Positions 35,233-59,368 of a DNA stretch of 59,453 nucleotides are shown one piece after another; the first letter of the stretch is position 1, and every line of letters starts with the position of its first letter. Under the pieces are notes generated by a model that worked only from the letters and a program-made list of their open reading frames with translations, did no database searches and was not told the origin of the DNA. A program made the translations under genes and the position numbers. This stretch comes from Bacteroidaceae bacterium (lineage in GTDB: Bacteria; Bacteroidota; Bacteroidia; Bacteroidales; Bacteroidaceae): positions 1 to 59,453 of the forward strand of contig JAKSLI010000015.1 in assembly GCA_024401305.1 (NCBI GenBank), in the 5' to 3' direction.

Positions 35233-35395
35233 AAGTAATAAGTAACAAGTAGTAAGTAATAAGTATGATTTGCTATGGTAGGGCGAGGATTTCCGAGCCG
35301 CAATAATAGCAATAATGGTTCTGAAATCTTCGCCCCACATTATCTTTGCTAAAGAGTAATCATACTTATTACTTGTTACTTATTACCTATTACTT
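35233..35395. repeat. Nested inverted repeat with 38-bp arms between panC and panD
   Basis: Arms 35233-35270 and 35358-35395 match at 34 of 38 positions as inverted copies and are built of AAGTAATAAGTAAC phrases. An inner pair, GGGCGAGGATTT (35281-35292) and AAATCTTCGCCC (35324-35335), matches at 11 of 12. The centre has GCAATAAT twice. No ORF lies in it. Confidence 0.85.
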
Positions 35396-35409
35396 AGAAG
35401 TTGAACAAA

Positions 35410-35757
35410 ATGCAAATAGAAGTTTTGAAGAGCAAGCTGCATTGCGTTAAGGTGACGGAAGCCAACCTCAACTACATGGGCAGCATAACAATAGACGAGG
35501 ATCTCATGGACGCGGCAAACCTTATTGCCGGCGAGAAGGTGTCTATCGTAAACAATAACAATGGCGAGCGCATCGAGACTTACATCATCAAGGGCGAACG
35601 CGGTTCCGGTTGCATCTGCCTCAACGGTGCGGCTGCAAGGAAATGCCAGGTTGGCGATGTGGTTATCATCATGTCGTACGCACTGATGGACTTCGAGGAA
35701 GCCAAGACTTTCAAGCCATGGGTAGTGTTTCCTGAGAACAACAAGGTTGTCAAATAA
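35410..35757 (+). CDS. panD: Aspartate 1-decarboxylase proenzyme
   Basis: The 115-residue proenzyme starts [20 protein letters not shown] and contains the self-cleavage site in NYMGSITID, where the Gly-Ser bond is cut to yield the pyruvoyl cofactor on Ser25. Late motifs [20 protein letters not shown] fit PanD. It makes beta-alanine from aspartate for PanC. The ATG at 35410 is preferred over a TTG at 35401. The plsC-like gene starts 12 bp after its stop. Confidence 0.97.
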
Positions 35758-35769
35758 AACGAAATCACA

Positions 35770-36318
35770 TTGAAAAAGAAATTATTCTCTTGGCTATTGT
35801 ATAAGGCACTTGGATGGAAATCGGAGCTGACCATTGAATTTCCCGACAAATACATCCTCGCTCTCGCTCCACACACGAGCAATTGGGACTTCATCCTCGG
35901 CGAACTTTTCTGCTTGGCTGAAGACGTCAGGATAGGTTTCATGATGAAGAAAGACTGGTTCTTCTGGCCTCTCGGACCCATCTTCCGCGCTCTTGGTGGC
36001 ATTCCGGTCAACAGGACAAGGAACACGAGCATGACGCAAGCCGTGGCAAATGCCGCAAGGGAGTCTGACAAGTTTGCCCTCTGCATAACGCCCGAAGGCA
36101 CGCGAAAAGCCGTTGGGGAATGGAAGAAAGGATTCTACTATATTGCCTACAACGCAAACATCCCTATCCTTCTCATCTCTGCTGATTACGAAAAGAAACT
36201 CATACGATGCACGAAAAAAGTCATCCCTTCAGGCGACTTCGACAAGGACATCGTGGAAATCAAGGCGTACTACAAAGGCGTGAAGGGAAAGAAACCCTTG
36301 AACTTTATATGCGAATAA
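35770..36318 (+). CDS. PlsC-like lysophospholipid acyltransferase family protein
   Basis: The 182-residue protein has the acyltransferase motif I as HTSNWD (H-x4-D, near residue 34), a glycine/proline motif ALGGIPVNR, and motif III as PEGTR. These mark 1-acylglycerol-3-phosphate acyltransferase-like enzymes; at 182 residues it is on the short side for PlsC proper, so the acceptor is uncertain. No in-frame ATG precedes motif I, so the start is taken as TTG 35770 (MKKKLFSWLLYKALGWKSEL), a rare codon choice. It follows panD closely and its 3' end overlaps the lipoprotein gene downstream by 10 bp. Confidence 0.87.
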   Translation: MKKKLFSWLLYKALGWKSELTIEFPDKYILALAPHTSNWDFILGELFCLAEDVRIGFMMKKDWFFWPLGPIFRALGGIPVNRTRNTSMTQAVANAARESDKFALCITPEGTRKAVGEWKKGFYYIAYNANIPILLISADYEKKLIRCTKKVIPSGDFDKDIVEIKAYYKGVKGKKPLNFICE

Positions 36319-38042
36319 GAACAATTCTATACATAACGACTCTGCTTCTGCTTGCTTCCTGTAGCACTCAGAAGCAGTTTGTTGTTACGCCTCCTTCTTT
36401 CCATAAGGGCTACCCTACTTACGAAGGACCTGCTTGGGTGAAGAACGAGTCGAGACCGTTCCGCATCACAAAGGGTCTTGAGAACAAGCATGTGGCGGTA
36501 ACAGCAAGCCACGGACGCTATTTCAACAACAAGAAAGGCGAATGGGACTGGCAGCGTCCTTACATGAACGGCACTCGCGAAGACCTTTTCACAAGCACCA
36601 TCGTGGTGCCTTACCTCATTCCGATGCTCGAAAACGCTGGAGCTAACGTGTTTTCAGCCCGTGAGCGCGACAATCAGATGGAAGAGATCATCGTGGATGG
36701 CGGCAAGGAATACAACATCTTCTACAATTGGGAGCACTGCCCCACCCCAGGCTTTGCCGACAGCAAGGCAGTTTACGACGACAACTACCATCCGTTTTCC
36801 GTAGGAACAACGCGAATGGCAAAGACGCATAAAAAGAAGAAATGCGAGGTTCAGTATGTTCCAAGCTTCAAGAAGAGCGGAAAATACGCCGTTTATGTGG
36901 CTTATGCAAAATACAAGGACCAGAATGTTCCCGACGCAAAGTACATCGTGATGCACGGCGGAACATGTACGGAGTTTACGGTAAACCAAACAATCGGACA
37001 AGGCACTTGGGTTTATCTCGGCACTTTCCATTTCGAAGCTGGCAGACCGGAACGCAACTTCGTAAGCCTTTCCAACGAGAGCAAGTACAAAGGTTATGTT
37101 ACGGCTGATGCTGTTCGCTTCGGAGGTGGCAAGGGAAGGGTTCTTCGTGGCGGCACGACAAGCGGTGAACTTCGCTGCGTCGAGGCGGCAAGATACAGCG
37201 CACAATGGTACGGAGCACCCGACAAGGTTTGGAACACTTTCAAGCATGAGAACGACTATAACGACGACATCCGCACGCGCCCTTCAATGGCAAACTGGAT
37301 GGCTGGCGGTTCATGCTTCAACCCAAAGGAGGAAGGACTGAATGTGCCGATAGAACTTGCCCTCGCCGTCCATAGCGATGCCGGCAAGACTACCGACTCG
37401 TCATACATCGGAACTCTCGGAATCTGCACTACAGACCATAACGGAGGAAAACTTGCCAGCGGTGCTTCTCGAGACCTCTCGAAGGTCTTTGCCGACAATC
37501 TCCAGAAGAACATCAAGACGGACCTTACGAACAAGTTTGGCAATTGGCGCTCACGCGGTTTATGGGACAAGAACTATGGCGAGACAAGAATCCCGGAAAT
37601 GCCATCGGCAATCATAGAGGTCTTGTCTCACGAGAACCCAGCCGACATGGAAAAAGGCCACGATCCTGAGTTCAAGTTCACTCTAGCGCGAAGCATGTAC
37701 AAGACAATCCTTCGATTCCTCGCCAACCAGCACGGACAGAACATCGTAGTGCAACCGCTTCCGCCATGCAACCTCTCCGCCTTCATCAACAAGAATGGCA
37801 AGTTGCAGGTTCAATGGCAAGCACAGACCGACAACACCGAACCGACATCACGCCCAAAAGGTTACATATTATATATAGCAACAAACAGCGGCGATTTCGA
37901 CAACGGACAGATCGTCAGCGGCAACGCCATCGCCATCACGCCGCTGCCAAACACCTCCTACACATTCAAGGTAACAGCCTTCAATGACGGCGGAGAAAGC
38001 CTGCCAAGCTACACCGAAATAACACTAAGCACTAAACACTAA
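36309..38042 (+). CDS. Lipoprotein with N-acetylmuramoyl-L-alanine-amidase-like, golvesin-like and FN3 domains
   Basis: The 577-residue protein starts at ATG 36309 with a lipoprotein signal (TTLLLLASC lipobox). Residues 60-150 and 290-450 resemble a split zinc amidase (amidase_3) fold: HVAVTASHGRYFNN, then LALAVHSDAG and MPSAIIEVLSHENP. Between them is a golvesin-like sandwich (YVPSFKKSGKYAVYVAYAKY ... GYVTADAVRFGG). The C-terminus is a fibronectin type III domain (about 475-570). Related Bacteroidota proteins are often called xanthan lyase, probably wrongly. A role in peptidoglycan cleavage is the best guess. The start overlaps the plsC-like gene. The last codons, including the stop, come from a CACTAAGCACTAAACACTAA phrase also found inside queA. 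Confidence 0.8.
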   Translation: MRIRTILYITTLLLLASCSTQKQFVVTPPSFHKGYPTYEGPAWVKNESRPFRITKGLENKHVAVTASHGRYFNNKKGEWDWQRPYMNGTREDLFTSTIVVPYLIPMLENAGANVFSARERDNQMEEIIVDGGKEYNIFYNWEHCPTPGFADSKAVYDDNYHPFSVGTTRMAKTHKKKKCEVQYVPSFKKSGKYAVYVAYAKYKDQNVPDAKYIVMHGGTCTEFTVNQTIGQGTWVYLGTFHFEAGRPERNFVSLSNESKYKGYVTADAVRFGGGKGRVLRGGTTSGELRCVEAARYSAQWYGAPDKVWNTFKHENDYNDDIRTRPSMANWMAGGSCFNPKEEGLNVPIELALAVHSDAGKTTDSSYIGTLGICTTDHNGGKLASGASRDLSKVFADNLQKNIKTDLTNKFGNWRSRGLWDKNYGETRIPEMPSAIIEVLSHENPADMEKGHDPEFKFTLARSMYKTILRFLANQHGQNIVVQPLPPCNLSAFINKNGKLQVQWQAQTDNTEPTSRPKGYILYIATNSGDFDNGQIVSGNAIAITPLPNTSYTFKVTAFNDGGESLPSYTEITLSTKH

Positions 38043-38057
38043 ATCCCCCAGCCACCG

Positions 38058-38077
38058 TTCTCGGCGTTTTTACGCCG
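38058..38077 (+). other. GC-rich hairpin before the 101-residue gene
   Basis: CTCGGCG and CGCCGAG form a perfect 7-bp stem around TTTTTA. No long T run follows; it may be an mRNA structure between two cistrons. Confidence 0.6.
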
Positions 38078-38097
38078 AGCCCCAACCCCCAAAGAAT

Positions 38098-38403
38098 ATG
38101 AAACTAATCCAAGCAAACGAGCGCGGCACTCGCTCAATCGCCGTAACTGAACAGCATTTCGTAACGCTTCAGAAATACTCCCTGCTCAAGAACCTTGTTG
38201 ACAGCAACGGTTTCATCGACGAAGGTGTTCTCGAAAAACTTCAGCTCAATCTCCGTGCACTTCTTGAATCTGCGCCAAAGGAAGAGCAGAAAGACCTCAT
38301 GAACCTCGCTTTCGATGTCATCTTCAATCTCAACATGAAGGCATTCGGTCTGCATCAGCTCCTCCTTTCATACGTAGAATGGGAGAATGAACATAAACAA
38401 TAA
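38098..38403 (+). CDS. Small helical protein of unknown function
   Basis: The 101-residue product MKLIQANERGTRSIAVTEQH ... LLSYVEWENEHKQ is predicted helical, without signal peptide, membrane helix or cysteines. I do not recognise the family. It begins 55 bp after the lipoprotein gene, behind a GC-rich hairpin (38058-38077), and ends 16 bp before the DUF2027-Smr start (or overlaps an alternative start of that gene by 17 bp). Coding potential is supported by codon use like its neighbours and by tight packing. A role with the Smr protein is only positional inference. Confidence 0.75.
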   Translation: MKLIQANERGTRSIAVTEQHFVTLQKYSLLKNLVDSNGFIDEGVLEKLQLNLRALLESAPKEEQKDLMNLAFDVIFNLNMKAFGLHQLLLSYVEWENEHKQ

Positions 38404-38419
38404 TACTACTACTGACAAA

Positions 38420-39559
38420 ATGAAAATCGGAGATAAAGTATCATTCCTGAGCGAAGTAGGAGGTGGAATCGTTTCGGGCTTCCAAGGAAACAACATCGTT
38501 CTCGTGGAAGACGAAGACGGCTTTGAGATTCCCATGCGCATGAACGAGGTTGTCGTAGTAAGCAATGAGAACTACGACAAGCCAAACCCATACGCAAAGA
38601 AACCTTCTGCACCATCCAAGGCTACTGTCATCGTTGATGACGACGAGGAAGAAGAAGTTGAGATCGAGCCTGCCGACCTTCCCATAGCCTACAAGGCAGA
38701 ACCAGAAGAGCGAAAGGGCGGCGACAAGCTCTACGCTTACCTTGCATTCTTACCGCTCAACGGCAAGGACATGGTCAACAATCGCTACGCCGTGTTCTAC
38801 ATCAACGACAGCAACTATTACCAGCAGTTTGTCATTTCCACACGAGAGAACAACGTATGCCACCTCTTCAAGGCAGCTCTCGTTGAGCCAAACACAAAGA
38901 TGCTCATCGACGAGATTGGCAAGGAAGACCTCAACAAGATTGAGCGCATTCTGGTTCAGATGATTTCATACAAGGAAACAAAGCCGTTCATCCGTCGTCC
39001 CGTCGTAGATGTCGAGCTGCGTATTGACGGCAGAAAGTTCTACAAGATTACATCCTTCAAGGAAAACGATTTCTTTGATGACGACGCCCTCATAGTGCCA
39101 ATCGTGGAAGACGACAGGACAATCACTGAAGAACCAAAGCATACTGCCGAGCTTGAACTTCGCTTGAAGAAGGCAATGACGGAGAAGAAGGCTGCAACCG
39201 AAAAGAAGGCAACCACACCACAGACAAATTCAGCTGCACATTCTGCCGTTCGCTTCAAGGAAGACATCAACGGAAAACTAATTATCGTTGACCTTCATGC
39301 ACAGGAAATCCTCGACTCCACATCAGGTCTTGAACCGATAGACATTCTTCGTTATCAAACGGATTTCTTCAACAAGATAATGAAGGACTACGGAAACAAG
39401 GCAGGACAGAAGATTGTGTTCATTCATGGCAAGGGCGAAGGCGTGCTCAGAGCCGCCATCATCAATGAGCTCACTTACCGCTACAAGCGTTGCAAATACC
39501 AAGACGCCTCATTCCAGGAATACGGCTTCGGAGCAACAATGGTAACTATCAGACACTAA
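38420..39559 (+). CDS. DUF2027 and Smr domain protein (MutS2-like C-terminus)
   Basis: The 379-residue protein starts with a small barrel (MKIGDKVSFLSEVGGGIVSG), continues with DUF2027 (about 85-215, LYAYLAFLPLNGKDMVNNRY), a charged linker with Lys/Ala repeats (EKKAATEKKATT), and ends in an Smr domain (VDLHAQEIL; FIHGKGEGVLRAAI). Smr domains are nucleases or nucleic-acid binders; those with HGKGxGxLR are usually catalytic candidates. I chose ATG 38420, matching the start of homologues I know; ATG 38387 would add eleven Asn/Thr-rich residues. It closes the panC-to-Smr series and is followed by a terminator. Confidence 0.88.
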   Translation: MKIGDKVSFLSEVGGGIVSGFQGNNIVLVEDEDGFEIPMRMNEVVVVSNENYDKPNPYAKKPSAPSKATVIVDDDEEEEVEIEPADLPIAYKAEPEERKGGDKLYAYLAFLPLNGKDMVNNRYAVFYINDSNYYQQFVISTRENNVCHLFKAALVEPNTKMLIDEIGKEDLNKIERILVQMISYKETKPFIRRPVVDVELRIDGRKFYKITSFKENDFFDDDALIVPIVEDDRTITEEPKHTAELELRLKKAMTEKKAATEKKATTPQTNSAAHSAVRFKEDINGKLIIVDLHAQEILDSTSGLEPIDILRYQTDFFNKIMKDYGNKAGQKIVFIHGKGEGVLRAAIINELTYRYKRCKYQDASFQEYGFGATMVTIRH

Positions 39560-39585
39560 TACATACTATACTATACCATACAAAT

Positions 39586-39618
39586 AAAGGCTGACTCTTT
39601 AACGGAGCCAGCCTTTTT
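39586..39618 (+). terminator. Terminator after the DUF2027-Smr gene
   Basis: AAAGGCTG pairs with CAGCCTTT (39609-39616), with CTC/GAG extending the stem inward, then T5. It may also serve miaB from the other side. Confidence 0.85.
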
Positions 39619-39639
39619 GTTATCAAAAAAACATTCTAA

Positions 39640-40950
39640 TTATTCTACAATTGTTCCGAGCAAAGTGGCGCTTGAGGAGCCTGTGATCTTTGCCATGAGG
39701 TATTCGCCGATGTGGTGGTTGCCCTTGTCGAACACGACTACCTTGTTCTGCTCCGTGCGACCGAAGAGTTGTTCGCGCGAGCGCTTGCTGTAGCCTTCCA
39801 CGAGTATCTGGTATGTCTTGCCTATTTCCGCTTGGTTGCGTTCTGCTGAGATTTGCGTCTGAAGGGCGATGAGCTCGTCGAGGCGGCGAAGCTTCACTTC
39901 CTCTGCCACATTGTCAGGAAGGTGCTTTGAGGCGTATGTGCCTGGGCGCTCGCTATACTTGAACATGAAGGCTGAGTCGTAGCCAACCTCACGCATGAGG
40001 GAGAGCGTCTGCTGATGGTCTTCCTCCGTCTCGTTATGATAGCCCACGAAGACATCGGTGGTGAGTCCGCAATCAGGAATGATGCGACGGATGGCTGCCA
40101 CACGCTCAAGATACCATTCGCGAGTGTATTTGCGATTCATGAGCTTGAGGATTGTGTTTGAACCGCTCTGCACAGGCAAGTGGATCTGCTTGCACACATT
40201 TGGCTCGTCGGCAATGACCTGCAGAGTCTCGTCGCTCATATCCTTCGGATGTGAAGTGGTGAAACGAACGCGCATCTCGGGAACTGCACGAGCTACCTTT
40301 CGCAACAACTCTGGGAAGTTGACGCCCTCGAAATTGTAGGAGTTAACATTCTGACCGAGAAGAGTGACCTCCTTGAAGCCACGGTCACGAAGGTCAACAC
40401 ATTCGCGGATGATGCTTTCCACCTCACGCGAGCGCTCACGACCGCGAGTGTATGGCACGATGCAATAGTGGCAGAAGTTGTTGCAGCCGCGCATGATGCT
40501 CACGAATCCGCCGAAGTTCCTGCCATGGGTAATGCGCTGTGGCACAATGTCCTTGTAAGTCTCTGATGTAGAGAGTTCGATGTTCATTGCCTTCTGTCCG
40601 AGTTCGCACTGGGCAATAAGGTCTGGAAGCGAGAGGTAGGAGTCAGGACCAGCCACGAGGTCTGCGTGATGGTTGTTAAGCAAATCTTCCTGAACACGCT
40701 CTGCCATGCAGCCGAGCACGCCGAGGATGCGCTTCTTTCCCTTCTTGTTGAGATTGTGAAGGGCATCAAGGCGATGAAGGATTTTCTGCTCCGCATTGTC
40801 GCGCACGGAACAAGTGTTGAGGAACACTGCATCTGCCTCGTCGAGAGTCTCGCAGAGTTCGTAGTCAGCCATCTTCATTACAGAGGCAACTACCTCGCTG
40901 TCAGCAACATTCATCTGACAGCCGTATGTTTCTATATAGAGTTTTTTCAT
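39640..40950 (-). CDS. miaB: tRNA-2-methylthio-N6-dimethylallyladenosine synthase MiaB
   Basis: A 436-residue methylthiotransferase. The N-terminal MTTase domain (MKKLYIETYGCQMNVADSEV, FLNTCSVRDNAE, VLGCMAERV) carries three cluster cysteines, and the radical-SAM motif is MRGCNNFCHYCIVPYTRGRE. A C-terminal TRAM domain follows. YGCQMN and the RGRERSR segment identify MiaB rather than RimO. It methylthiolates i6A37 in tRNAs reading UNN codons. It is the last gene of a minus-strand set; the terminator at 39586-39618 may serve both converging units. Confidence 0.96.
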   Translation of the reverse strand: MKKLYIETYGCQMNVADSEVVASVMKMADYELCETLDEADAVFLNTCSVRDNAEQKILHRLDALHNLNKKGKKRILGVLGCMAERVQEDLLNNHHADLVAGPDSYLSLPDLIAQCELGQKAMNIELSTSETYKDIVPQRITHGRNFGGFVSIMRGCNNFCHYCIVPYTRGRERSREVESIIRECVDLRDRGFKEVTLLGQNVNSYNFEGVNFPELLRKVARAVPEMRVRFTTSHPKDMSDETLQVIADEPNVCKQIHLPVQSGSNTILKLMNRKYTREWYLERVAAIRRIIPDCGLTTDVFVGYHNETEEDHQQTLSLMREVGYDSAFMFKYSERPGTYASKHLPDNVAEEVKLRRLDELIALQTQISAERNQAEIGKTYQILVEGYSKRSREQLFGRTEQNKVVVFDKGNHHIGEYLMAKITGSSSATLLGTIVE

Positions 40951-40982
40951 TTTACGATTGGTGATTTGTCGATTATTCGGGC

Positions 40983-41765
40983 TTATTTCACTCCCTTCAT
41001 TGAGGTGAGGAATGCTTTGGCAGAGCCGAACTTTAGGGTAAGGTCAAGGCGAATAGGGATATGGCGAGAATCGTCTGTCACATAGAAGCGTACTATTTCC
41101 TTCCATTTTCCCTTTTCAAGTTCACAGAAAGAGAGTTCAAGGCAGTTGTACTTGTTGCCGTCGTCAGCCTTCACCGTGGTCTTTCCACGATAGACGAGCT
41201 TTGTCTGGTCAACATCATCGCCGTCAGCCATCTTGAACTTCACCTCATGTCCTTTGTTCCAGCTTGAGGCGTCCATGTTTCTGGCACGAAGGAAGGAACT
41301 CATCATATCGACGACACAATCGCTGACAGCCGTCTTCTTTTTCTTGAGTTCGCCATGCCTGTTAAGATAATGCTGGGTAAGGTTTGCCTTGCCTCCGCTG
41401 TAATCGTACCAAACCTCATCAACGGTGTATCGCTTGCCTTCCTTTGCTCCTTTACGGAAATAGAGAGGCGCTAGGTCTTTTCCCACATGGCAAAGCAGCG
41501 TATCGCGCATGACGAAGAACTTGTCTGCCTTGCTGTTTCCACGGGTTATCAGACTTCCTTTGTACGAAGGCTTCCCCTTGTATGTAGCGTTCGACACCGC
41601 CATGGTAGCAGTGCCAGCCTTTACCCACACGAACTGCCAATTGTAATACAGGTTGTAGGTAAGATACTCGCCACCAAGGAAAGCGGTATTCTTCATCGTG
41701 CATTGCGCATTTGCCACTGTAGCAAAGAGCAGGATGCTGATAATAGCTGAGAATATTCGTTTCAT
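40983..41765 (-). CDS. DUF3108 family exported protein
   Basis: The 260-residue protein has a signal peptide (MKRIFSAIISILLFATVANAQ) and a beta-rich mature part with GEYLTYNLYYNWQFVWVKAG and FYVTDDSRHIPIRLDLTLKF, which fits DUF3108, a periplasmic family with a lipocalin-like fold and no settled function. It lies 3 bp after the Ig-like lipoprotein gene and 32 bp before miaB. Coupling with the lipoprotein suggests a joint envelope role; no enzyme residues can be named. Confidence 0.85.
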   Translation of the reverse strand: MKRIFSAIISILLFATVANAQCTMKNTAFLGGEYLTYNLYYNWQFVWVKAGTATMAVSNATYKGKPSYKGSLITRGNSKADKFFVMRDTLLCHVGKDLAPLYFRKGAKEGKRYTVDEVWYDYSGGKANLTQHYLNRHGELKKKKTAVSDCVVDMMSSFLRARNMDASSWNKGHEVKFKMADGDDVDQTKLVYRGKTTVKADDGNKYNCLELSFCELEKGKWKEIVRFYVTDDSRHIPIRLDLTLKFGSAKAFLTSMKGVK

Positions 41766-41768
41766 AAG

Positions 41769-43805: not shown

Positions 43806-43883
43806 TAAAATCCAATTATTTAGATGATTATATACAATTTGCCATTTTAGCTTGGATTCTTTTAGACAAAAACATTAAAAACC

Positions 43884-44009
43884 GTTTTTATAAGAAAGTG
43901 CCTCTTTAGAGCCACTGCTAGATTGCTTCTGAATTGTTCTTATGAAAGCGAGCTTTCAACGCCCAATCCATAATCAATCCAGCACCATAAAGGTTTTCCT
44001 TATAAAAAC
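43884..44009. repeat. Long imperfect hairpin 1
   Basis: Outer arms GTTTTTATAAG (43884-43894) and CTTATAAAAAC (43999-44009) are perfect. Middle arms at 43916-43936 and 43964-43984 match at 17 of 21. The apex GAAAGC-GA-GCTTTC is perfect (43944-43957). Confidence 0.8.
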
Positions 44010-44044
44010 AAAAAACAACGCTTCGCTAAAAACAAGGTCGCAGT

Positions 44045-44138
44045 CAACTGAAGATTATCAATAAATTATACTTATATAACTGATGCACACGATAAGTCAA
44101 ATAAGTTAGATTTATTAATCAGATATAGTTTTCAGTCG
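44045..44138. repeat. Long imperfect hairpin 2
   Basis: Arms 44059-44075 and 44101-44117 match at 13 of 17. Outer CAACTGAAGA (44045-44054) faces TTTTCAGTCG (44129-44138) with 8 of 10. Weaker than its neighbours. Confidence 0.6.
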
Positions 44139-44162
44139 AAATGTTTTTTCTGTTTTTTGCCT

Positions 44163-44276
44163 GAAAGAGAAGAAAGCCCTTCGGGTGATGGTTTGAACTT
44201 GGGATTTTATCTGTGAGCTCGCTCACAAGGAAAATTACAAGAGCAAATCATCAATGGCAAAGCCATCTTCTCTTTC
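44163..44276. repeat. Long imperfect hairpin 3 with perfect 11-bp ends
   Basis: GAAAGAGAAGA (44163-44173) and TCTTCTCTTTC (44266-44276) are perfect. Next come GATGGTTTG/CAAATCATC, TTGGGATTTT/AAAATTACAA and the apex GTGAGC-TC-GCTCAC, giving an almost continuous 114-nt fold. Confidence 0.82.
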
Positions 44277-44307
44277 GTGCGGTTATTATTGTTTTTGTTT
44301 TATCATC

Positions 44308-44334
44308 ATCTGACATTGTGCCAAATCGTATATA
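44308..44334. repeat. 27-bp motif shared with the gap upstream of the lyase gene, copy 1
   Basis: TGACATTGTGCCAAA then TCGTATATAGTT. A copy at 50873-50899 differs at about four positions. Both lie just beyond a long hairpin. Confidence 0.65.
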
Positions 44335-44341
44335 GTTCCTA

Positions 44342-45850: not shown

Positions 45851-45885
45851 TATATTTTGACTTCTAAGAACTCGGATTTATTTTT

Positions 45886-45959
45886 GAACACGAATTAAAC
45901 GAATCAAACGAATTCAAACCATCATATCCTTATTCGTGAGATTCGAGAGATTCGTGTTC
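45886..45959. repeat. Inverted repeat between ispG and GH3 genes
   Basis: Arms 45886-45913 and 45932-45959 match at 22 of 28 around an 18-bp spacer. The right arm is made of ATTCGTGAGATTCGAGAGAT-type phrases. Confidence 0.78.
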
Positions 45960-45987
45960 TCTTAATAATATCGGTGTTCTTAAATCC

Positions 45988-47400
45988 TTATTTCTTCAAA
46001 TCTGTCTTGATGAATTCAAGCAGTTTCTCCACAGCATCTTCCTCAGGAAGGTTCTTCATGATACATTCCTTCTGCTTGTAGAGAGATATTTTTCCGCGTC
46101 CGGCACCAACATATCCGTAGTCGGCATCTGCCATTTCGCCAGGACCATTCACGATGCAACCCATGATTCCAATCTTCAGGGTAGAGAAGCGCGGGTCGTT
46201 CTTTGCTTCCGTGAGGATGGCTTCCTTGATGCGGGCGATTGTTGACTGAAGGTCATAGAGCGTTCTTCCGCAGCCTGGGCAAGAGATGAACTCAGGTTTT
46301 GTGAAACGAACGCGAGCCGCTTGGAGGATGCTATCCGCGAGGTTCTTCAGCTCTTCCTTCGTGAAGTTAGGATTCTCTATGACAAGTTCATGCGCACAGC
46401 CGTCGATAAGCAAAGCGCCAACAGTCATGGCTGCCTTCAGCTGAAGGTCTTCGAGATCGGATTCTTTGAGGGCTAGGGTGATGGTATCATCCTTGATATT
46501 TGCCTTTGCCTCGTGACGAAGCTTTGCGCAATCTTCAATCATCTCCACGAGTTTCTTTGCCACAGGAATCTCGCATTCAGGCTCTTCCGAGAGAGAGACG
46601 CGGATTGTGTCGCCAATACCTTCTACCAACAAAGCTCCGATACCTACGGCGCTCTTTATTCTTCCGTCCTCACCTTCGCCAGCTTCCGTTACGCCAAGAT
46701 GCAGAGGGAAGTGCATATCCTCCTTGTCCATCTGCTCAACGAGAAGTCTAACCGAACGAACCATAACGACTGTGTTGCTCGCCTTAATGGAGATAACCAC
46801 ATTCATGAAATTCTCCTTCACGCAGATGCGAAGGAATTCCATGCAGCTCTCGACGATCCCTTCAGGAGTATCGCCATAATGCGACATTATTCTGTCGGAA
46901 AGCGAACCGTGGTTTACGCCGATTCTGATAGCCGTGTTATGCTCCTTGCAAGAACGGAGGAAAGGCACGAAGCGGTCTTCAAGGCGTTGGAGTTCAGCTG
47001 CGTATTCCTCTGGGGTATATTCCAGTTGCTTGAAAGTTCGGGCTGGGTCGATATAGTTTCCCGGATTGACGCGAACCTTCTCCGTATGAAGGGCTGCCAC
47101 ATCTGCCACGGCAGGGTTGAAGTGGACATCGGCCACGAGCGGAACATTCACGCCAAATTCCTTCAGACGCTCATGGATAGGCGTAAGGTTCTCAGCCTCA
47201 CGAGTGCCTTGGGTGGTAAGTCTTACATATTCGCCGCCAGCATCCACGATACGCTTAGCCTGCTGAGCAGAGCCTTCGGTATCCATCGTCGAGGTGGTTG
47301 TCATGGACTGAACGCGGATAGGATTATCTCCACCAAGCGGAGTATTGCCAATCTGCACCTCAACGGTCTTGCGACGAGAATAAGAATTGGAATTAGTCAT
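45988..47400 (-). CDS. ispG: 4-hydroxy-3-methylbut-2-enyl diphosphate synthase IspG with shortened insertion domain
   Basis: The 470-residue protein begins with the IspG TIM barrel (VEVQIGNTPLGGDNPIRVQS; VADVHFNPAVADVAALHTEKVRVNPGN in two parts; SAVGIGALLVEGIGDTIRVS) and ends with the 4Fe-4S domain (CPGCGRTLYDLQ; IMGCIVNGPGEMADADYGYV). It makes HMBPP from MEcPP in the MEP pathway. Bacteroidota and plant enzymes normally carry a large extra domain of over 200 residues between the two and exceed 600 residues. Here only the tail of that domain is recognisable (VGALLIDGCAHELVIENPNF), so about 130 residues seem absent. It is longer than the 370-residue E. coli type. No frameshift is visible and both catalytic parts look intact. 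Confidence 0.94.
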   Translation of the reverse strand: MTNSNSYSRRKTVEVQIGNTPLGGDNPIRVQSMTTTSTMDTEGSAQQAKRIVDAGGEYVRLTTQGTREAENLTPIHERLKEFGVNVPLVADVHFNPAVADVAALHTEKVRVNPGNYIDPARTFKQLEYTPEEYAAELQRLEDRFVPFLRSCKEHNTAIRIGVNHGSLSDRIMSHYGDTPEGIVESCMEFLRICVKENFMNVVISIKASNTVVMVRSVRLLVEQMDKEDMHFPLHLGVTEAGEGEDGRIKSAVGIGALLVEGIGDTIRVSLSEEPECEIPVAKKLVEMIEDCAKLRHEAKANIKDDTITLALKESDLEDLQLKAAMTVGALLIDGCAHELVIENPNFTKEELKNLADSILQAARVRFTKPEFISCPGCGRTLYDLQSTIARIKEAILTEAKNDPRFSTLKIGIMGCIVNGPGEMADADYGYVGAGRGKISLYKQKECIMKNLPEEDAVEKLLEFIKTDLKK

Positions 47401-47418
47401 TTTGATTATATATTTTTA

Positions 47419-47536
47419 TCAAGAATTAGTGAATTTGAGAATTTTAACCTGTAGCATTCTTATAAATTCTTTTTGAATTCATCTAAATGTGAGATACCTT
47501 CCGGATGGATAAATTCTCTAATTCACAAATTCTTGA
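47419..47536. repeat. Inverted repeat with 28-bp arms between purE and ispG
   Basis: Arms 47419-47446 and 47509-47536 match at 24 of 28; all mismatches are A/T exchanges. Phrase AAGAATTAGTGAATTTGAGA. The spacer is 62 bp. Confidence 0.82.
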
Positions 47537-47545
47537 CAAATAACC

Positions 47546-48046: not shown

Positions 48047-48055
48047 ATTAAAAGG

Positions 48056-48091
48056 AGCCCACCCAAGCCCTCCCCAAGGGAGGGATGTTTA
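48056..48091 (-). repeat. 36-bp hairpin element in the purE leader
   Basis: Partner of 2715-2750. On the minus strand the hairpin CCCTCCC-ttg-GGGAGGG is followed 21 nt later by the purE ATG. Confidence 0.75.
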
Positions 48092-48161
48092 AATGCTTTT
48101 GCGGGCGGAATTTATATTAGTTTATATTTAAAATTCAGTAAGTTATACTATAAGAAGTTCC

Positions 48162-48188
48162 CCCTTCGGGGGTTAGGGGGCTTTTTAT
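48162..48188 (-). other. CCCCC-ttc-GGGGG hairpin at the PAP2-like gene end
   Basis: CCCCCTTCGGGGG followed by TTAGGGGGC; the gene's stop codon is directly beside it. Possibly a weak terminator or an extragenic repeat. Confidence 0.5.
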
Positions 48189-50639: not shown

Positions 50640-50862
50640 GGATTTATGGTAGATTTTAGGTAAGATTCAAGGAGCAACGCGACGCCTCAAAATAAATACT
50701 CTCAATCATTTACGCGAGATTTACAACAAGATTTACGCGAGATTTAAATCCTAACGAAGATATCTTTCCATAAATCATGCATAAATATCTTTAGAATGAG
50801 ATTAAAAAAGGCGCTTCGCTTGAATCTCACCTTAAATCTAACAGAAATCTTACCCTAAATCC
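50640..50862. repeat. Long GATTTA-rich inverted repeat upstream of the lyase gene
   Basis: Arms 50650-50671 and 50819-50840 match at 20 of 22. GGATTTATGG (50640-50649) has a counterpart near 50853-50862. Inside, ATTTACGCGAGATTTA is repeated exactly at 50708-50723 and 50731-50746 (23-bp period). Confidence 0.78.
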
Positions 50863-54100: not shown

Positions 54101-55850
54101 CAACACACCTGTTCTCACAAAGCAGGGCGCTGGCAAGACTACCATTAATAATATTAATAATGTAGGAAATACTATCATCGAGGGTGGTTCGCTCTACGCA
54201 AGTTCACTTGCCAACAATGTGGGCACTGATATGGGTGCGCTCGGAACGAAGGACAAGACAATCACACTCAAGAACGGAGGTACATTCGGTGTTGTAGGTT
54301 CTACAGAAGGTGCTCATAAGATTATCTGCTCTACAGGCAACGGTCAGATTGAAGTCCCTTCAAGCTCTACATTCACTCAGACAGGTTCTGTCACTTCTGA
54401 CAACGGTGGTACACTTACCAAGAAGGGCGGTGGTACCCTTGCACTCAGAGGTTCTCTAACAGCATCTTCATTGACCATCAAGGCTGGTACAGTGGATTAC
54501 ACAGGTTCTGCATACGGCAAGACTGTCTATCTTGAAGGATCGTCAGGCATTTCCGGTTCAGGATTCTTCGGAACTCCATTCAACTTGTCAAACAGTGCAA
54601 AGGTTACATACAACTCTGCCAACCGCGTGACATCTTCCAACAGTCTTATCGGTGGCGGTCAGATTACGGTTGTTTGCTATCTTGAGAAGGGTTCAAACTA
54701 CTATGCTACACGTAACCCTATGCAGCTTAAGATGTCGCAGTTTGAAGGTACTCTCATCCCAGGCTGCAACTATGCTAAAGAAGACGGACGCTTTACTTTC
54801 GACACTTCTACAGGTTCCGCAAACTGGACTCTCAACATCCCAGAAAACATCCACGTCCAGAACTCAGGAAAGACTCTCCGCATCGGACAGCTTGCCGGCA
54901 AGGGTACTCTCGGAGGTACTTGTACTTTCTCTAACGGAGGTGGTACTTCCGCCGTGAACACATGGCAAGTTGGTAACGACAAGGACTTCACAAGTGCTGT
55001 TGTAGTTGTTGACAACGCCAAGCTCACGAAGATGGGAACTGGCAAGATGACAGTTAGCTCGGAATGGACAACAACAGGAGCCGTAAGCGTCAACGAAGGC
55101 GAACTTCATGCCAACAGCACAAAGAGCCTCGGTACAGGTGCTCTCACTGTAGCTGAAGGTGCTACATTCTCAGGTCTTTCAAACATGATTTACGCAACTG
55201 CCAAGAAGTATCCTATCACTAACAGCTCTGTTACCGTAAGCGGTACTATGCAATGCGGATTGACATCTACTACAACTTCAGGATCATTCTTCTATTTCGG
55301 AGCAAAGAAGCTCACCATCAAATCTACAGGTACTTATCGTGTAGGTGTTGACAAGTGTAGCACAGGTGAGTCTTATCCTGGTTGTGCACACATCTTCGGC
55401 GATGGAGCAAAGGCTGCCCTTGTGATGGAGGACGGAGCTACTGTAGATGTATTTACTGCAACTACTTACGATCCGGCAGCATCTATTGGCACAGACGAGC
55501 AGAAGGCAGACTCTTTCTGCATCTTCAGCGGCTTTGCAACGGTTTCTATTGGCAATGTTAAATTCAACCTCCCTACCCTTCCATCTGGATATTACTGGGA
55601 CACAACCAAGTTCAAGACTGGCTATCTCTATGTTCGTTACACAGGCTCAGACGCTATTCGCGGAATACAGTCTAGCGAGCAGGTAACCGTGGATATCATT
55701 TCTGCAAACGGTAGTCTTGTTGGCACATTCCATAGCACAGCTGGTAATGCCAAGGCTGTATTCTCTCGCAAGCAGCTTTCAAGAGGCGTCTATATCCTCA
55801 GAATGAGAAATGCAAAGGGCAAGACTGCAAGCATCAGAATGACTAAATAA
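51171..55850 (+). CDS. Secreted rhamnogalacturonan lyase (PL11-like) with PATR beta repeats and T9SS sorting domain
   Basis: The 1559-residue protein has a signal peptide (MKIRFVLLLLATIISNTVSAQ), an FN3-like sandwich (GVFVSWRNQADEYYDVTYNL) and a PL11-type eight-bladed propeller to about residue 620, with calcium-loop-like DVDGDGELE, DWDMDGKAEV and DVDMDGRDE and the segment GHGDAQHHGDLDP. From about 710 to 1330 come at least four autotransporter-associated beta-strand repeats (NLTKQGAGTLVMP; VLTKQGAGKTTIN; TLTKKGGGTLALR; KLTKMGTGKMTVS). The end (about 1495-1559) is a type A T9SS sorting domain closing with GVYILRMRNAKGKTASIRMT. It should cleave rhamnogalacturonan I backbone outside the cell. 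ATG 51171 is preferred to an upstream TTG. A -7 box lies at 51038-51045. Confidence 0.92.
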   Translation: MKIRFVLLLLATIISNTVSAQRFTDKLDRGLVAVKTSSGVFVSWRNQADEYYDVTYNLYRNGAKIASNLNTSNYSDVAGNTSSSYQVAAVVRGVEQEKCQAITPWATDYKEIKIQHDPSLKCTYIPNDACCADVDGDGELEILLKLTNKQEYEGGYQTRTTVNGEKVYEYAILEVLKLDGTVLWWVNTGVNMGDFQNNEQNIVGYDWDMDGKAEVVIRLCEGAIVHMADGSTYTVGTDGKNSTNYKEYRTPAGDGQWFSHWGNEYLYYCEGATGKPYLQNGGLLKYPCARFEPGESDLNAAWGDGYGHRAGKFFFGAPYLDGHKPSIFLGRGIYTRHKFVALDVDPATHNLTERWRWMNNSNGPWKGQGYHNYGVADVDMDGRDEIVWGSMVIDDNGLGLSTTGLGHGDAQHHGDLDPYTYGLEGFFCNEDQPANNYRDLTTSKLYHRYAASGDDGRAIAGNFCGTVPGAMGFSAHENAISCVTGNVEGALTKNGVGMNFNCFWDGDLLEETYNGGDNAPGSISKYNGTYFKEFTGSLTNNSTKATPCYKGDILGDWRDEFIVRTPNNNIRIYTTSIKTQHRMASLWYDHQYRNGMVWEPCGYNQPPHVSYFVGELEGYTAAPPSLTMTGRTEVSNGGTISGTGKELIMRETNNMTVAVSEGAAPTNFVDNAPSWVQGWAPSEVTTANDPTRIKYTYYTHTLTGGAFTGAMNLTKQGAGTLVMPSTTHTYTGKTDVWEGQLTLVGNLPNSRVFLNRHTVLNAEGEFGKSIEAYYNGVIRPGGEEAKAATISCDSLIMRYGATAELDIFSEGNASDKINANVLVIEKKDWTIGPKYLAPVFRINHHGIGEDPIADGVYDLGTVGEIKGNLSNIIIEGFVMQKATLSHEDGKLLLTVKNFDAEPVTWTGANSSNWNVDADANFKSNNTESTTFLNGAPVTFDDNATNTNVVLTSNVAPASVTFANETKAYTLSGDYIIDNTPVLTKQGAGKTTINNINNVGNTIIEGGSLYASSLANNVGTDMGALGTKDKTITLKNGGTFGVVGSTEGAHKIICSTGNGQIEVPSSSTFTQTGSVTSDNGGTLTKKGGGTLALRGSLTASSLTIKAGTVDYTGSAYGKTVYLEGSSGISGSGFFGTPFNLSNSAKVTYNSANRVTSSNSLIGGGQITVVCYLEKGSNYYATRNPMQLKMSQFEGTLIPGCNYAKEDGRFTFDTSTGSANWTLNIPENIHVQNSGKTLRIGQLAGKGTLGGTCTFSNGGGTSAVNTWQVGNDKDFTSAVVVVDNAKLTKMGTGKMTVSSEWTTTGAVSVNEGELHANSTKSLGTGALTVAEGATFSGLSNMIYATAKKYPITNSSVTVSGTMQCGLTSTTTSGSFFYFGAKKLTIKSTGTYRVGVDKCSTGESYPGCAHIFGDGAKAALVMEDGATVDVFTATTYDPAASIGTDEQKADSFCIFSGFATVSIGNVKFNLPTLPSGYYWDTTKFKTGYLYVRYTGSDAIRGIQSSEQVTVDIISANGSLVGTFHSTAGNAKAVFSRKQLSRGVYILRMRNAKGKTASIRMTK

Positions 55851-55898
55851 TCACCAAAAGGTTTTAAAATCGTAAATAAACACAGAATAATTTATTAT

Positions 55899-56034
55899 CA
55901 AACGCGAGTTGCACGAGTTACACGAGTTCTTTTATTCTTATAGTCTTTAAAAGTTTCACAAGTTATCTTTGCAGTAAGTAAAACTCATTAATCTTTTATA
56001 AACTATAAAAACTCGTGACACTAGTGAAACCCGT
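55899..56034. repeat. CACGAGTT-type inverted repeat between the two secreted-protein genes
   Basis: GCGAGTTGCACGAGTTACAC on the left faces an ACTCGTGACACTAGTGAAAC run (about 56013-56032) as an imperfect inverted copy. The promoter of the next gene lies between the arms. Confidence 0.6.
55964..55971 (+). promoter_or_regulatory. -7 element of the 960-residue secreted protein gene
   Basis: TATCTTTG, an exact TAnnTTTG, followed by CAGTAAG. It predicts a leader of about 120 nt lying partly in an inverted repeat. Confidence 0.6.
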
Positions 56035-56099
56035 GTTTAAATAAAAAAATAAACTTTTTATTAACTCAATATTTTATTAACCTATTAAAAATTCAAATC

Positions 56100-58982
56100 A
56101 TGAAAAAGTTTTTACTTTTCACTTGTGCACTGTTTAGTGCCGTGGCTGGATTTGCACAGGAGTATGTTTATACTGCCAATGCAAAGTACAAGCTCAACGG
56201 AGCTAGCATTGTATCAAATGTAGTGAATGCTGATTTTGCTGGTTGGAATGTAATTACAGCTACAGAAGGTACTGCCCTCAGTTCTATCTTCGCTTATGCT
56301 GACGGTGCTTACGTTTCTCAGCAGACAGTAGCAACAGAAGGTATGTCTTACAACATCGCAGGCATCTCTTCAGGTGATTCTTATGTAGTTGCAGTGAAGA
56401 TGACTCAGACTGCTGAGACAACTCCTCACAACAGCACTCGTATGGGTCTCGCTTGTACTCACCTCAACCATGACTTCAATGTACTCAGCATCACTGGTAC
56501 AAACATGGAAGATGCAGAAGACATTGTAGAATGTGCTACTGCTACTGAGATTATGCCTGGTGAAGCTGGCACAACTTACTACTATGCTATCCCAGCTACA
56601 GAAGTAGGTCGCAGCTACCAGATCAAGCTCATCGGTTTCTCTACAAACATCGCTATCAACAGCATCGAGGTAATCCCTGCTACTCAGGTTGTTGACGATC
56701 GCTCTTACGCTTCTCTTGTTGACTATGCAAACAAGATCATGAACGCTCGCGATTGGGCAGAAGCTGGCAAGGACGTTTCTGGTCTTCAGGAAACTCTCGG
56801 CTATGTAAGCGCTCTCACTCCAGAAACTGACCTCGAGGAGGCAGCTGGTATCGTAGAAGGTCTTCAGGACGCTATCAAGGAGTTCCTTGGTGAGCTTGAC
56901 GACTTCCTCCCTAGCAAGGAGTCTAAGATTCCTGCTCCTGCATCAACATTGAACCTCCAGAAGAAGAACGATATCGGTGGCACTTGGATTGGTTTCGGCG
57001 GCGGTGAAGGTCGTGTCCATTCAGCAAAGGCTGACGGTGGTGGCTATTATGACGTAGGTCACTATGCTGGTAACACTGCATGGGGCTTCGGTAGTGGCTG
57101 TAACGGTCTTATTTATAAGGTAGATCTTGAGCCAGGTACTTACATCTTCTCTATGAAGGGTCGCGCAGTATCTCGCGAACAGGGTACATCTTCTTGCTGG
57201 TGTGAAAACCAGGGTCTTTCTTGTGCTTACGGTGTAATGTATATCCGTCCAGTAGGCACTGACGAGGAAGAAGCTAACATCGTTAAAACTGACGCAGAAT
57301 ACGAAAAGAGCAAGGCTCTCGCATTCGAGCAGTTCAACATGAGCCCAATCAACTACGAATTGCATTCAATCGCTGTTACTGTAACAGAGGCTGGCACATA
57401 CGAGTTCGGTTACAAGACATACGCTCAGGATCACTACGGCGAGACTAAAAACGGTGGTTCATTCTATCCACTCGACGCAGCTATCTATGCTAAGACTAAC
57501 GCTAAGTACACTAAGGCTCAGTATGCTTACGAAGAGGACGTTCGCGGACAGATCCAGGCTGGTCTCGACAACATCCAGACAGCTAAGGACAACCTCGCTA
57601 ACGCTGAGAAGTACTGGGGCAAGGCCGACCTCCAGGCTGCTCTCGAGGCTGCTGAAGCTGCAATCGCAGCATACGCAGCAATGGATCAGGATGCTATCAT
57701 CGCTACATACGATGGTGACATCTACGACAAGGATAAGGGTCTTGAAGTGATTTCTGACGTTGACGGTGAGTCATACGCTCGCCTCCTCGCTTCTGAGGTT
57801 TACCGTACAGTAGTTAAGGACCTCATCGCTGCTAACACTGCATTCGCTAACAAGAACGCTGTTCTTGAAAGCCTTGACAAGGCTATCGCTGATGCTGAGG
57901 CTGCACTTGAATTCCGTATCTACGACAAGGCTACTGGTAAGTCAGCTCTCGAGGCTGCTATCAAGGAAGCTAAGGCTATGCTCGCTGACATGAAGACTAA
58001 GGAGTACTCAGAGGATGAGGTTGATTCAACTGATGACGGAAACGTTGTAGTAATCTCTAAGGGTAACAAGACTATCGTTAACGAAATGGTTGACAAGCTC
58101 AAGAACGCTGTTGACGAATTCAAGGCTACTATCCCTGCTTCTGCAGTAACTGTTCTTGCTGACATCGACTTCGAGGCAGTTCCTGTAGCTGTTGACCCAA
58201 CTGCTGACCTCGCTACTGCTAACGGCGAAGCTACTCTCGCAGGTGCAGTTAACTCTATGTTGATGACTTCATTCACTGCTTCTGACAACGCTGCTTCTAT
58301 CAACAATGCTTGGCAGATTGGTTACTGGTCTAACGGTGAAGACATCCGCGCAGGTATCGTTCACGTTGGTAACGGTCAGGGTATCGTAGAGATGGAAGTT
58401 CCAGCTGACGCTTACGGAACTGACGTTATCCGCGTTTCTATGGACTGGTGGTTCGGCTCTCTCAACAAGGGTTATGTAGGTTTCTATCTTAAGGATGCTG
58501 AAGATGCTAACGTAGGTGGCTTCTACTTCAGCCCATACGATAACGCAAGCGAATATGACCCATGTTCTATCCGTGCTACAGGTTATGTAGCTAAGGGTAA
58601 GAGTGGCGTTGAGAACGACCAGATCTGTATGGATGACGACAAGACTCACATGGAGTACGTAGTTGACTGTGGTAACAAGGTTATGTACGCTATCTCTAAC
58701 ACTCCTAAGGGTGTATATCAGACAGTTCCTGTAGCTCTTGACAGCGCTAACCCAATTGCTAAGTTCGTCTTGACGTCTAACTACACTAACATGAACCGTC
58801 GTACTTGGTTCGACAACCTCAAGATTGAGCGTATCGCTGCTGATCCTAACACAGTTACAGCTATCCAGAACGTAGTTAACCGCAAGGCTATTTCTAACGC
58901 TATCTACAACCTCGCTGGTCAGCGCGTTGACGCTAACTACCGTGGTGTAGTTATCAAGAATGGCGTTAAGGTTATGCAGTAA
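56100..58982 (+). CDS. Large secreted protein of unknown function with T9SS-like C-terminus, likely highly expressed
   Basis: The 960-residue protein has a signal peptide (MKKFLLFTCALFSAVAGFAQ). Beta-rich regions (about 20-200, 275-475 and 695-920) alternate with helical, Ala/Glu/Lys-rich stretches (205-260 and 480-690, for example ADLQAALEAAEAAIAAYAAM), reminiscent of FIVAR-type spacers between carbohydrate-binding modules. The end (AISNAIYNLAGQRVDANYRG ... NGVKVMQ) resembles the short T9SS-type tails of Prevotella proteins. I cannot name a function. Codon use is extreme: GCT, GTA/GTT, AAC, AAG, ATC, CTC and TCT dominate, as in pnp and ribosomal genes, suggesting an abundant surface protein. 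A -7 box at 55964-55971 gives a leader of about 120 nt, and a strong terminator follows, so it is transcribed alone. Confidence 0.85.
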   Translation: MKKFLLFTCALFSAVAGFAQEYVYTANAKYKLNGASIVSNVVNADFAGWNVITATEGTALSSIFAYADGAYVSQQTVATEGMSYNIAGISSGDSYVVAVKMTQTAETTPHNSTRMGLACTHLNHDFNVLSITGTNMEDAEDIVECATATEIMPGEAGTTYYYAIPATEVGRSYQIKLIGFSTNIAINSIEVIPATQVVDDRSYASLVDYANKIMNARDWAEAGKDVSGLQETLGYVSALTPETDLEEAAGIVEGLQDAIKEFLGELDDFLPSKESKIPAPASTLNLQKKNDIGGTWIGFGGGEGRVHSAKADGGGYYDVGHYAGNTAWGFGSGCNGLIYKVDLEPGTYIFSMKGRAVSREQGTSSCWCENQGLSCAYGVMYIRPVGTDEEEANIVKTDAEYEKSKALAFEQFNMSPINYELHSIAVTVTEAGTYEFGYKTYAQDHYGETKNGGSFYPLDAAIYAKTNAKYTKAQYAYEEDVRGQIQAGLDNIQTAKDNLANAEKYWGKADLQAALEAAEAAIAAYAAMDQDAIIATYDGDIYDKDKGLEVISDVDGESYARLLASEVYRTVVKDLIAANTAFANKNAVLESLDKAIADAEAALEFRIYDKATGKSALEAAIKEAKAMLADMKTKEYSEDEVDSTDDGNVVVISKGNKTIVNEMVDKLKNAVDEFKATIPASAVTVLADIDFEAVPVAVDPTADLATANGEATLAGAVNSMLMTSFTASDNAASINNAWQIGYWSNGEDIRAGIVHVGNGQGIVEMEVPADAYGTDVIRVSMDWWFGSLNKGYVGFYLKDAEDANVGGFYFSPYDNASEYDPCSIRATGYVAKGKSGVENDQICMDDDKTHMEYVVDCGNKVMYAISNTPKGVYQTVPVALDSANPIAKFVLTSNYTNMNRRTWFDNLKIERIAADPNTVTAIQNVVNRKAISNAIYNLAGQRVDANYRGVVIKNGVKVMQ

Positions 58983-59036
58983 TAACTAACATTCTTCGCC
59001 CAATGATGAATCATTTCATCATGAAGGCATAATATT

Positions 59037-59078
59037 TCAGGGACAGGCATTTCAGATGTCTGTCCCTGATTTTTTTTG
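59037..59078 (+). terminator. Terminator of the 960-residue secreted protein gene
   Basis: TCAGGGACAG pairs with CTGTCCCTGA (59060-59069), extended by CAT/ATG inside, followed by T8. Strong and complete. Confidence 0.93.
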
Positions 59079-59187
59079 TTGAGTTACCGTCGATTACGGG
59101 TTGAGTTACCGTGAGTTTTGGGTCAAGTTACCGTGAGTTTTGAAATTATCTCTATGAGTTATGAAATTATCTCCGTGAGTTTTTGAG
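59079..59187. repeat. Five tandem 21-22-bp degenerate repeats
   Basis: Units at 59079-59100, 59101-59122, 59123-59144, 59145-59165 and 59166-59187. Core of the first three is GAGTTACCGTGAGTTTTG; the last two share ATTATCTCyrTGAGTT. Confidence 0.82.
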
Positions 59188-59285
59188 TTTTTTCCAGAGG
59201 AATTTTATCGAAAATCCGTCACCCGTCACCATCACACCGTAACAGTCTGATAATAAACAAAATAGACCCGTGATAGATCATCTTG

Positions 59286-59368
59286 ACCCGTCACCACCCG
59301 TCACCACCCATCACAGAAATTTTCGGCGTGACAGGTTTGTGATAGATGCGTGACAGGTTGTGACGGGT
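59286..59368. repeat. CCCGTCACC-type inverted repeat at the right end
   Basis: ACCCGTCAC (59286-59294) faces GTGACGGGT (59360-59368); a second ACCCGTCAC (59296-59304) faces GTGACAGGT (59350-59358); ATCACA faces TGTGAT near the centre. Confidence 0.75.

Follow-up and report, generated by a model that had tools for sequence, protein, structure and literature searches.

The stretch of DNA analysed here (the window) comprises 59,453 nucleotides of contig JAKSLI010000015.1 (C23) from a Bacteroidaceae bacterium, whose 3.22-Mb genome is 86% complete in 115 contigs. Between positions 35,233 and 59,368, gaps between protein genes hold long imperfect inverted repeats at nine listed loci, referred to below by position as 35233, 43884, 44045, 44163, 45886, 47419, 50640, 55899 and 59286. 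A preliminary description made from the sequence had reported these repeats; our analysis confirms them and partly supports the interpretation given there. The mirrored repeats of this gut bacterium are probably copies of small mobile fold-back elements that belong to many dispersed families, some of them with a little-studied small gene, of one of three kinds, in the loop.

Inverted repeats in the gaps and their dispersed families

The family A element at the first locus has a left arm at 35233..35270, a heptad array (AAGTAAT/AAGTAAC) ending in AAGTATGATT, and a mirrored heptad array as its right arm at 35358..35395. The loop between them (35271..35357) holds, at 35274-35341, a copy of another dispersed hairpin family (GTAGGGCGAGGATTTCCGAGCC) that is also present at many places in a related genome (G398, see below). 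The 43806-44341 gap is a single composite with copies elsewhere. It includes a 144-bp hairpin element (43883..44026, listed as 43884) between two copies of a 7-bp direct repeat (TAAAAAC at 43876..43882, and 44027-44033), a family P hairpin (ATCAATAAAT..ACTTAT; 44050..44140, listed as 44045), and a long quasi-palindrome (44163..44276) with three small palindromes inside and four further copies at 87–93%. Beside ispG lie a fold-back whose arms repeat a phrase of ~9 bp (ACGAATTAA / CGAATCTCA; 45865..45982; relatives at L095 and L097) and a family M fold-back (TATCAAGAATTAGTGAATTTGAGAATTT; 47415..47540, arms 47415-47444 and 47511-47540). The gap at 48047..48184 contains inverted GC-rich hairpins (AGCCCCCTAACCCCCGAAGGGGGAAC and others) with 20 related places in our genome sample. 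Family H (GATTTATGGTA..GATTCAAG; 50641..50849) has arms at 50641-50671 and 50819-50849 and a loop that is conserved among copies, and the family L fold-back (55872..56065) has arms of a 9-bp CACGAGTTN phrase. Near the end of the window, degenerate 21–22-bp tandem arrays (GAGTTACCGTGAGTT..; 59078..59183; dispersed relatives L101 and L104) are followed by a fold-back with CCCGTCACC phrase arms (59204..59449; relatives L101 and L115).

Self-complementary alignments of gaps of at least 60 bp were scored against 100 dinucleotide shuffles of the same gap, and the nine listed loci against 200 shuffles each. Eight loci beat every shuffle, with scores of 28.0 (35233), 12.5 (43884), 16.0 (44163), 13.0 (45886), 22.5 (47419), 21.0 (50640), 18.5 (55899) and 19.0 (59286); the score of 11.0 at 44045 was reached by 2 of 200. 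Across the window, 10 of 21 gaps exceeded the best of 100 shuffles. Within 35233..59368 the figure was eight of nine, the sole failure being the gap at 48047, where self-complementarity was not significant; the gap at 39560, among the eight, holds a short terminator-like hairpin that had not been listed previously. No part of the window matched Rfam at the gathering score.

The shuffle test that the preliminary description had proposed for the genome also favored the repeats: a noncoding sample of 469 segments (123,644 bases) contained 122 ungapped repeats scoring at least 15, and its shuffles contained 0, 0, 1, 0 and 0. At the same score, density was 982 per Mb in noncoding sequence vs. 27 per Mb in mechanically called open reading frames (ORFs). 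The statement that such repeats fill most long gaps is true of this stretch, but not of the genome, where 73 of 242 gaps of at least 150 bp in a 1.0-Mb sample hold one, short-loop hairpins being left out of that count. By rules that we set ourselves, 127 noncoding repeats were divided into 42 with heptad arms, 29 with arms of 8–13-bp phrases, 10 GC-rich, 25 short-loop hairpins and 21 others.

The repeats had been thought to be built from phrases specific to each locus, and in this to differ from repetitive extragenic palindromic (REP) sequences and miniature inverted-repeat transposable elements (MITEs), which have a common sequence. Neither view holds, as every listed locus recurs in the genome, with relatives for all nine in the 0.94 Mb of the sample remaining outside the window. 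Near full-length dispersed copies (91–95%) were found for 50640 (95% across 259 bp, at L099), 43884 (94%, 134 bp), 44163 (93%, 117 bp) and 55899 (91% across 186 bp, at L056). The 44045 locus has a relative at 98% across 57 bp, and 35233 has relatives at 23 places. Weaker relatives exist for 45886, 47419 and 59286, the weakest being that of 47419 (one place, 66% over 131 bp). Reversed-sequence controls gave no match for eight loci and one for 45886. The window contains many families with few copies of each, and more than 12 families can be discerned by phrase among the repeats of the genome. The architecture common to the loci, short degenerate phrases that are then mirrored, had been recognized correctly and proved an important clue.

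The sample is enriched for family A, since most of one batch of stretches was picked for the phrase of that family; two further batches are contig starts. The family A core, AGTAATAAGTATGATTA, has 22 copies here and one copy in one of 397 other congeneric genomes, and AAGTATGATTA occurs exactly 39 times in the genome vs. once for the reversed pattern. Family A loops are mostly unrelated to one another (by eye), and some of its arms are partnered with an arm of a different family. Also by eye, copies of families B, C and D (e.g., L106:16571, L108:11310, L097:16050) have small hairpins just beyond the heptad arms, whose sequence varies between copies while palindromy is kept. Some loops of families B, C, D and M have a common apex like CCATCCGGATGG.

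Elements present and absent as units

The closest relatives by IspG in one named collection are two Bacteroidaceae metagenome-assembled genomes, G398 (L031, from horse faeces; 87%) and G399 (L032; 82%). Comparison of orthologous gaps, which the preliminary description had recommended, revealed that whole elements come and go between relatives. Read from the sequences, elements are missing in L031 from purE-ispG, ispG-GH3, GH3-Big5 and PAP2-purE, and in L032 from ispG-GH3 and GH3-Big5; the 45865..45982 fold-back is thus missing from the ispG-GH3 gap of both, and the family M fold-back from the purE-ispG gap of L031. Between panC and panD, a gap of 170 bp with a family A element corresponds to ~60 bp without one in G398 and to ~210 bp with an unrelated fold-back in G399. 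Beside uppS, a family A element is found here and a GxxExxY element (see below) in G398. Family A itself has other heptads in G399 (AAGTACT, AAGTAGT) with the same inner end, and was not found in the G398 stretches examined.

The composite at 43806-44341 records two events. In comparison with a copy at L068, the window is longer by 144 bp, the hairpin at 43883..44026, and TAAAAAC is duplicated. The L068 copy in turn contains a 255-bp family N element that the window lacks, and there AATAAGT is duplicated, a sequence that lies at 44100-44106 in the window, within the family P hairpin. Together with the elements missing from relatives, these two nested insertions with 7-bp duplications indicate that the repeats are mobile fold-back elements, present or absent as units. 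The terminal repeats of family N are TAGGGTGTCCAGTT, and a further copy of this family, at L082, is bordered on both sides by ATAAAGTTATT, an 11-bp direct repeat.

Genes inside the loops and arm grammar

The ORF in the loop of one family P copy is one that we took to be GxxExxY-like, and it was then searched as PF13366. When 1084 ORFs were then scanned for inverted flanks irrespective of gene family, DUF559 genes and four-helix-bundle/S23 genes also stood out, and Pfam confirmed both (for the S23 gene at L088:9474-9827, PF05635 at E 6e-34). With an enclosure score of at least 18, a threshold chosen after the scores were known, inverted arms enclose 8 of 8 GxxExxY, 8 of 12 stand-alone DUF559 and 4 of 6 testable S23 genes in genomes G000, G398 and G399. 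Pooled, 20 of 26 testable genes of the three families are enclosed, whereas among the 1075 other ORFs 17 are (Fisher 1.4e-27); a ninth GxxExxY gene at a contig end and a thirteenth DUF559 within a 985-aa reading frame were left out. The score is sensitive to the flank window, as L193 and L206 score 7 and 13, or 23 and 22 with a wider one. Several of the 17 other ORFs are apparently enclosed because both adjoining gaps hold copies of one family.

Loci in the window match the flanks of such genes. Family A arms surround an S23 gene in G399 (L204), whose flanks 35233 matches at E 3e-8. Matches of 44045, 44163 and 47419 to the flanks of GxxExxY genes L180, L183 and L186 range from E 3e-12 to 6e-7: family P arms surround the gene at G000:C34 (L180), the 44163 quasi-palindrome has 31 bp at 90% in common with the flank of L183, and arms like those of family M surround L186 in G398. 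The 48047 gap matches DUF559 gene flanks at E 1e-9 to 3e-8, arms similar to its hairpins bordering L190, L196 and L197. Reversed queries at the E 0.01 limit gave one match each for 35233, 44045 and 48047. By eye, the arm of one DUF559 element (L199, ~1433-1468) apparently lies within the first codons of uppS here, a stretch that is missing in G398.

Beyond these genomes, PF13366 was detected in 151 of 296 genomes from the phylum. Among 30 of the best-scoring loci, all placed by match position (3 of them without a recognized ORF), 22 have inverted flanks that exceed 100 shuffles of their own flanks, with phrases such as AACCACAGAGGCACAGAGACACAGAG. A cross-locus control (99% quantile 97.9, with none of 27 loci above it) was set aside as unusable because the loci have phrases in common and some loci are near-identical. 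On plasmids, 3 of 8 GxxExxY loci beat 200 shuffles, as did each of the 10 S23 loci tested from a set of 34 records, nine of these 10 being cyanobacterial and one on a Gemmatimonadota plasmid. The nine plasmid S23 loci with annotation all have protein genes on both sides; S23 genes are found within cas operons and between nrd genes. In three cyanobacterial plasmids (L245, L246, L251) the S23 elements occupy cas operons at cas6-cas4 or cas10-cmr3. Eighteen four-helix-bundle/S23 genes have been reported in cas loci (PMC3936711), and such genes may be insertions rather than parts of CRISPR systems.

In an alignment of 36 GxxExxY proteins, E, D, E and K are conserved in 35, 36, 35 and 35 sequences, so that the PD-(D/E)XK residues are intact; we presume that the E, D and E-x-K columns are the catalytic ones. 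Twelve DUF559 proteins have invariant D-F and E-x-D-G..H motifs. In the PDB, a DUF559 protein has an endonuclease-like relative (3hrl) and an S23 protein matches 2gsc; the one GxxExxY protein searched had no match.

Arm grammar goes with the class of the loop gene. Among arms scoring at least 14, 13 of the 15 S23 arms have a best repeat unit of 7 or 14 bp, in contrast to none of 28 for GxxExxY (Fisher 2.9e-9), all 28 of which have a unit of 8–13 bp. The ten DUF559 arms are GC-rich and palindromic, with no clear tandem unit.

For the S23 class, nine empty sites with a flank identity of 85–97% served for comparison with four named cyanobacterial elements. The inserts measure 517–518, 486, 408 and 494 bp, the third being 425 bp when set against two of its three empty sites. 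Their junctions fall at the outer ends of the heptad arrays or within ~20 bp of them. At three sites, bases of the empty site are missing (10–11, 42 and 13 bp); at the fourth, ~10 imperfect bp were duplicated in one comparison and 7 bp were missing in two. Because empty records are many, we infer insertion rather than loss. One insert (L253:1408-1925) replaced the end of an integrase gene and brings a new in-frame stop codon (junction by eye).

Probable mobile fold-back elements and rival explanations

We propose that an element consists of two inverted arms of a short degenerate phrase and a loop, and that it is mostly placed between genes. Most copies are gene-less, and fuller copies of several families have one small loop gene: GxxExxY (PDDEXK_3), the endonuclease-like DUF559, or the four-helix-bundle/S23 protein of 23S rRNA intervening sequences. 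The loop protein would recognize its own arms and promote copying or insertion, by a DNA or an RNA route, and gene-less copies would be moved in trans. A bolder version, for which we judge the chances slightly below even, sees here a widespread autonomous selfish DNA without a conventional transposase, in which three unrelated small proteins (two nuclease-like, one a four-helix bundle) each captured the fold-back architecture, read their own phrase grammar, and generated most intergenic heptad and 8–13-bp phrase repeats in Bacteroidota and Cyanobacteriota.

Several points weigh against the proposal. Association of genes with arms does not establish that the proteins act on them. Five listed loci (43884, 45886, 50640, 55899 and 59286) match no gene-bearing flank that was fetched, and when family A loops were considered as remnants of the L204 S23 gene region, none of 10 scored above shuffles. 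Arms above shuffles are lacking at 8 of the 30 phylum GxxExxY loci, in 5 of 8 plasmid GxxExxY records, and at all three cyanobacterial-plasmid DUF559 loci, one of which is a domain of a large protein. Several of the GxxExxY units rest on weak lag matches (0.41–0.5). Target duplications are inconsistent, with 7 bp in the two nested events, ~10 imperfect bp once at an S23 site, and otherwise small deletions. No transposase has been tied to the families, the search for one being non-exhaustive.

If the elements were ordinary MITEs, they would be internal deletions of conventional insertion sequences with a DDE transposase, and the GxxExxY, DUF559 and S23 genes would be passengers. The terminal repeats of family N and its 7-bp duplication speak for this; a search for the terminal pattern found six sites. 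Against it, each of the three gene families is repeatedly the only gene in the loop, in several arm families, across Bacteroidota and (for S23) Cyanobacteriota and with class-specific arm grammar, and S23 junctions have no constant duplication. With a search for a parent insertion sequence that was not exhaustive, we consider this origin unlikely. Mobilization by a REP-associated tyrosine (RAYT, Y1) transposase is suggested by family A, whose inverted pairs of conserved arms around unrelated loops resemble REPINs (REP doublets forming hairpins), and by two Y1_Tnp matches in the genome. Yet the one Y1 gene inspected (L101:14214-15194) has none of these repeat families around it, family A arms are heptads rather than a REP palindrome (by eye), and in other families the loop genes are nuclease-like or S23. 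We consider RAYT mobilization quite improbable.

Selection for pairing in structural RNA or transcription elements, such as terminators or processing hairpins, would account for long hairpins in operon gaps, and stems of intervening sequences in several bacteria are RNase III substrates according to passages of PMC4990558. Against this, co-directional gaps hold more of the long elements per kb (1.12; 66 elements) than convergent gaps do (0.74; 14 elements). The short-loop hairpins have the terminator pattern (0.64 per kb in convergent vs. 0.14 in co-directional gaps); for the long elements we rejected intrinsic terminators, as enrichment in convergent gaps is absent and the preference opposite. 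Elements are also missing from relatives, and family A arms do not covary: at variable heptad positions, agreement was 0.656 within elements vs. 0.672 between them (permutation p 0.77, 8 pairs), and in G399 0.450 vs. 0.463 (p 0.68; 5 pairs, of which two have an arm in common). We rate selection for pairing as very improbable; processed RNAs or binding arrays, as suggested in the preliminary description, may still apply. The same agreement test, which covers family A only, bears on the suggestion that template switching keeps regenerating mirrored copies. Such a mechanism has been proposed for RNA hairpins (PMC8794818), and the arms here are indeed imperfect and mirrored, but family A shows no within-element excess of arm similarity, and whole elements recur elsewhere and come and go as units. 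Family A arms pair because both are arrays of one phrase, and regeneration by template switching is extremely improbable.

Mobile fold-back elements, the reading that we prefer, resemble several known systems in part. In REPINs and bacterial interspersed mosaic elements (BIMEs), conserved arms form inverted pairs around variable loops, at sites scattered between genes. The elements here are likewise dispersed inverted arm pairs with variable loops, but their arms are tandem phrase arrays, some loops contain genes, and no RAYT link was seen at the one Y1 gene inspected. Like MITEs, they are short, dispersed, and free of a transposase gene, with duplications at some insertions; unlike MITEs, they have an arm grammar tied to three small proteins, and no parent transposase was found in our non-exhaustive search. 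Drosophila FB elements have long inverted arms with internal repeats, and short heptanucleotide repeats (STRR, short tandemly repeated repetitive sequences) are known from cyanobacteria. The fold-back transposon Galileo also has long inverted arms with internal repeats (PMC3573991). The present elements share that feature with FB and Galileo but are bacterial, mostly 100–520 bp, and without a transposase gene. TAACTGA heptad arrays in gaps, patchily common to Beggiatoaceae, Cyanobacteria and Bacteroidetes, are described in passages of PMC4679880 as direct repeats whose mechanism of transmission is not evident. Both these and STRR are heptad arrays in intergenic gaps like ours, whereas the heptads here form inverted arms around S23 genes.

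A parallel for one class is the intervening sequence of 23S rRNA genes, presented in passages of PMC4990558 as a selfish element whose terminal inverted repeats pair into a stem, with an S23 ORF in its loop. S23-class elements likewise have inverted arms and a PF05635 gene in the loop, a likeness that extends to that class and not to the gene-less copies in the window. They differ in lying between protein genes rather than in the 23S rRNA gene, in their heptad-array arms, in their many gene-less copies, and in having sister classes with GxxExxY or DUF559. Full-text literature searches, with subscription journals mostly outside their reach, gave no link of GxxExxY, DUF559 or S23 genes to such arms among the matches listed. 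If the proposal is true, heptad arrays, CACAGAG-type phrases and GC-rich hairpins between genes would have a common origin. The three families now annotated without a role (GxxExxY, DUF559, and four-helix-bundle/S23 outside rRNA) would gain a likely one, and much of the turnover of gaps within operons would have a testable cause.

Outside 35233..59368, a heptad array of the family C phrase ATTACTC lies at 3975..4031; its relatives are weak evidence, with 72 matches vs. 34 for the reversed-sequence control. Degenerate 12–24-bp repeats at 8271-8397, inside the ORF at 8122-9873, indicate that phrase-like arrays occur in coding sequence too. IspG (45988-47400) has 470 aa in the window, and in at least 22 of 56 congeneric genomes with an IspG match, the match is split in two and falls within a reading frame exceeding 600 aa, which points to a large internal segment that is present or absent within one genus.

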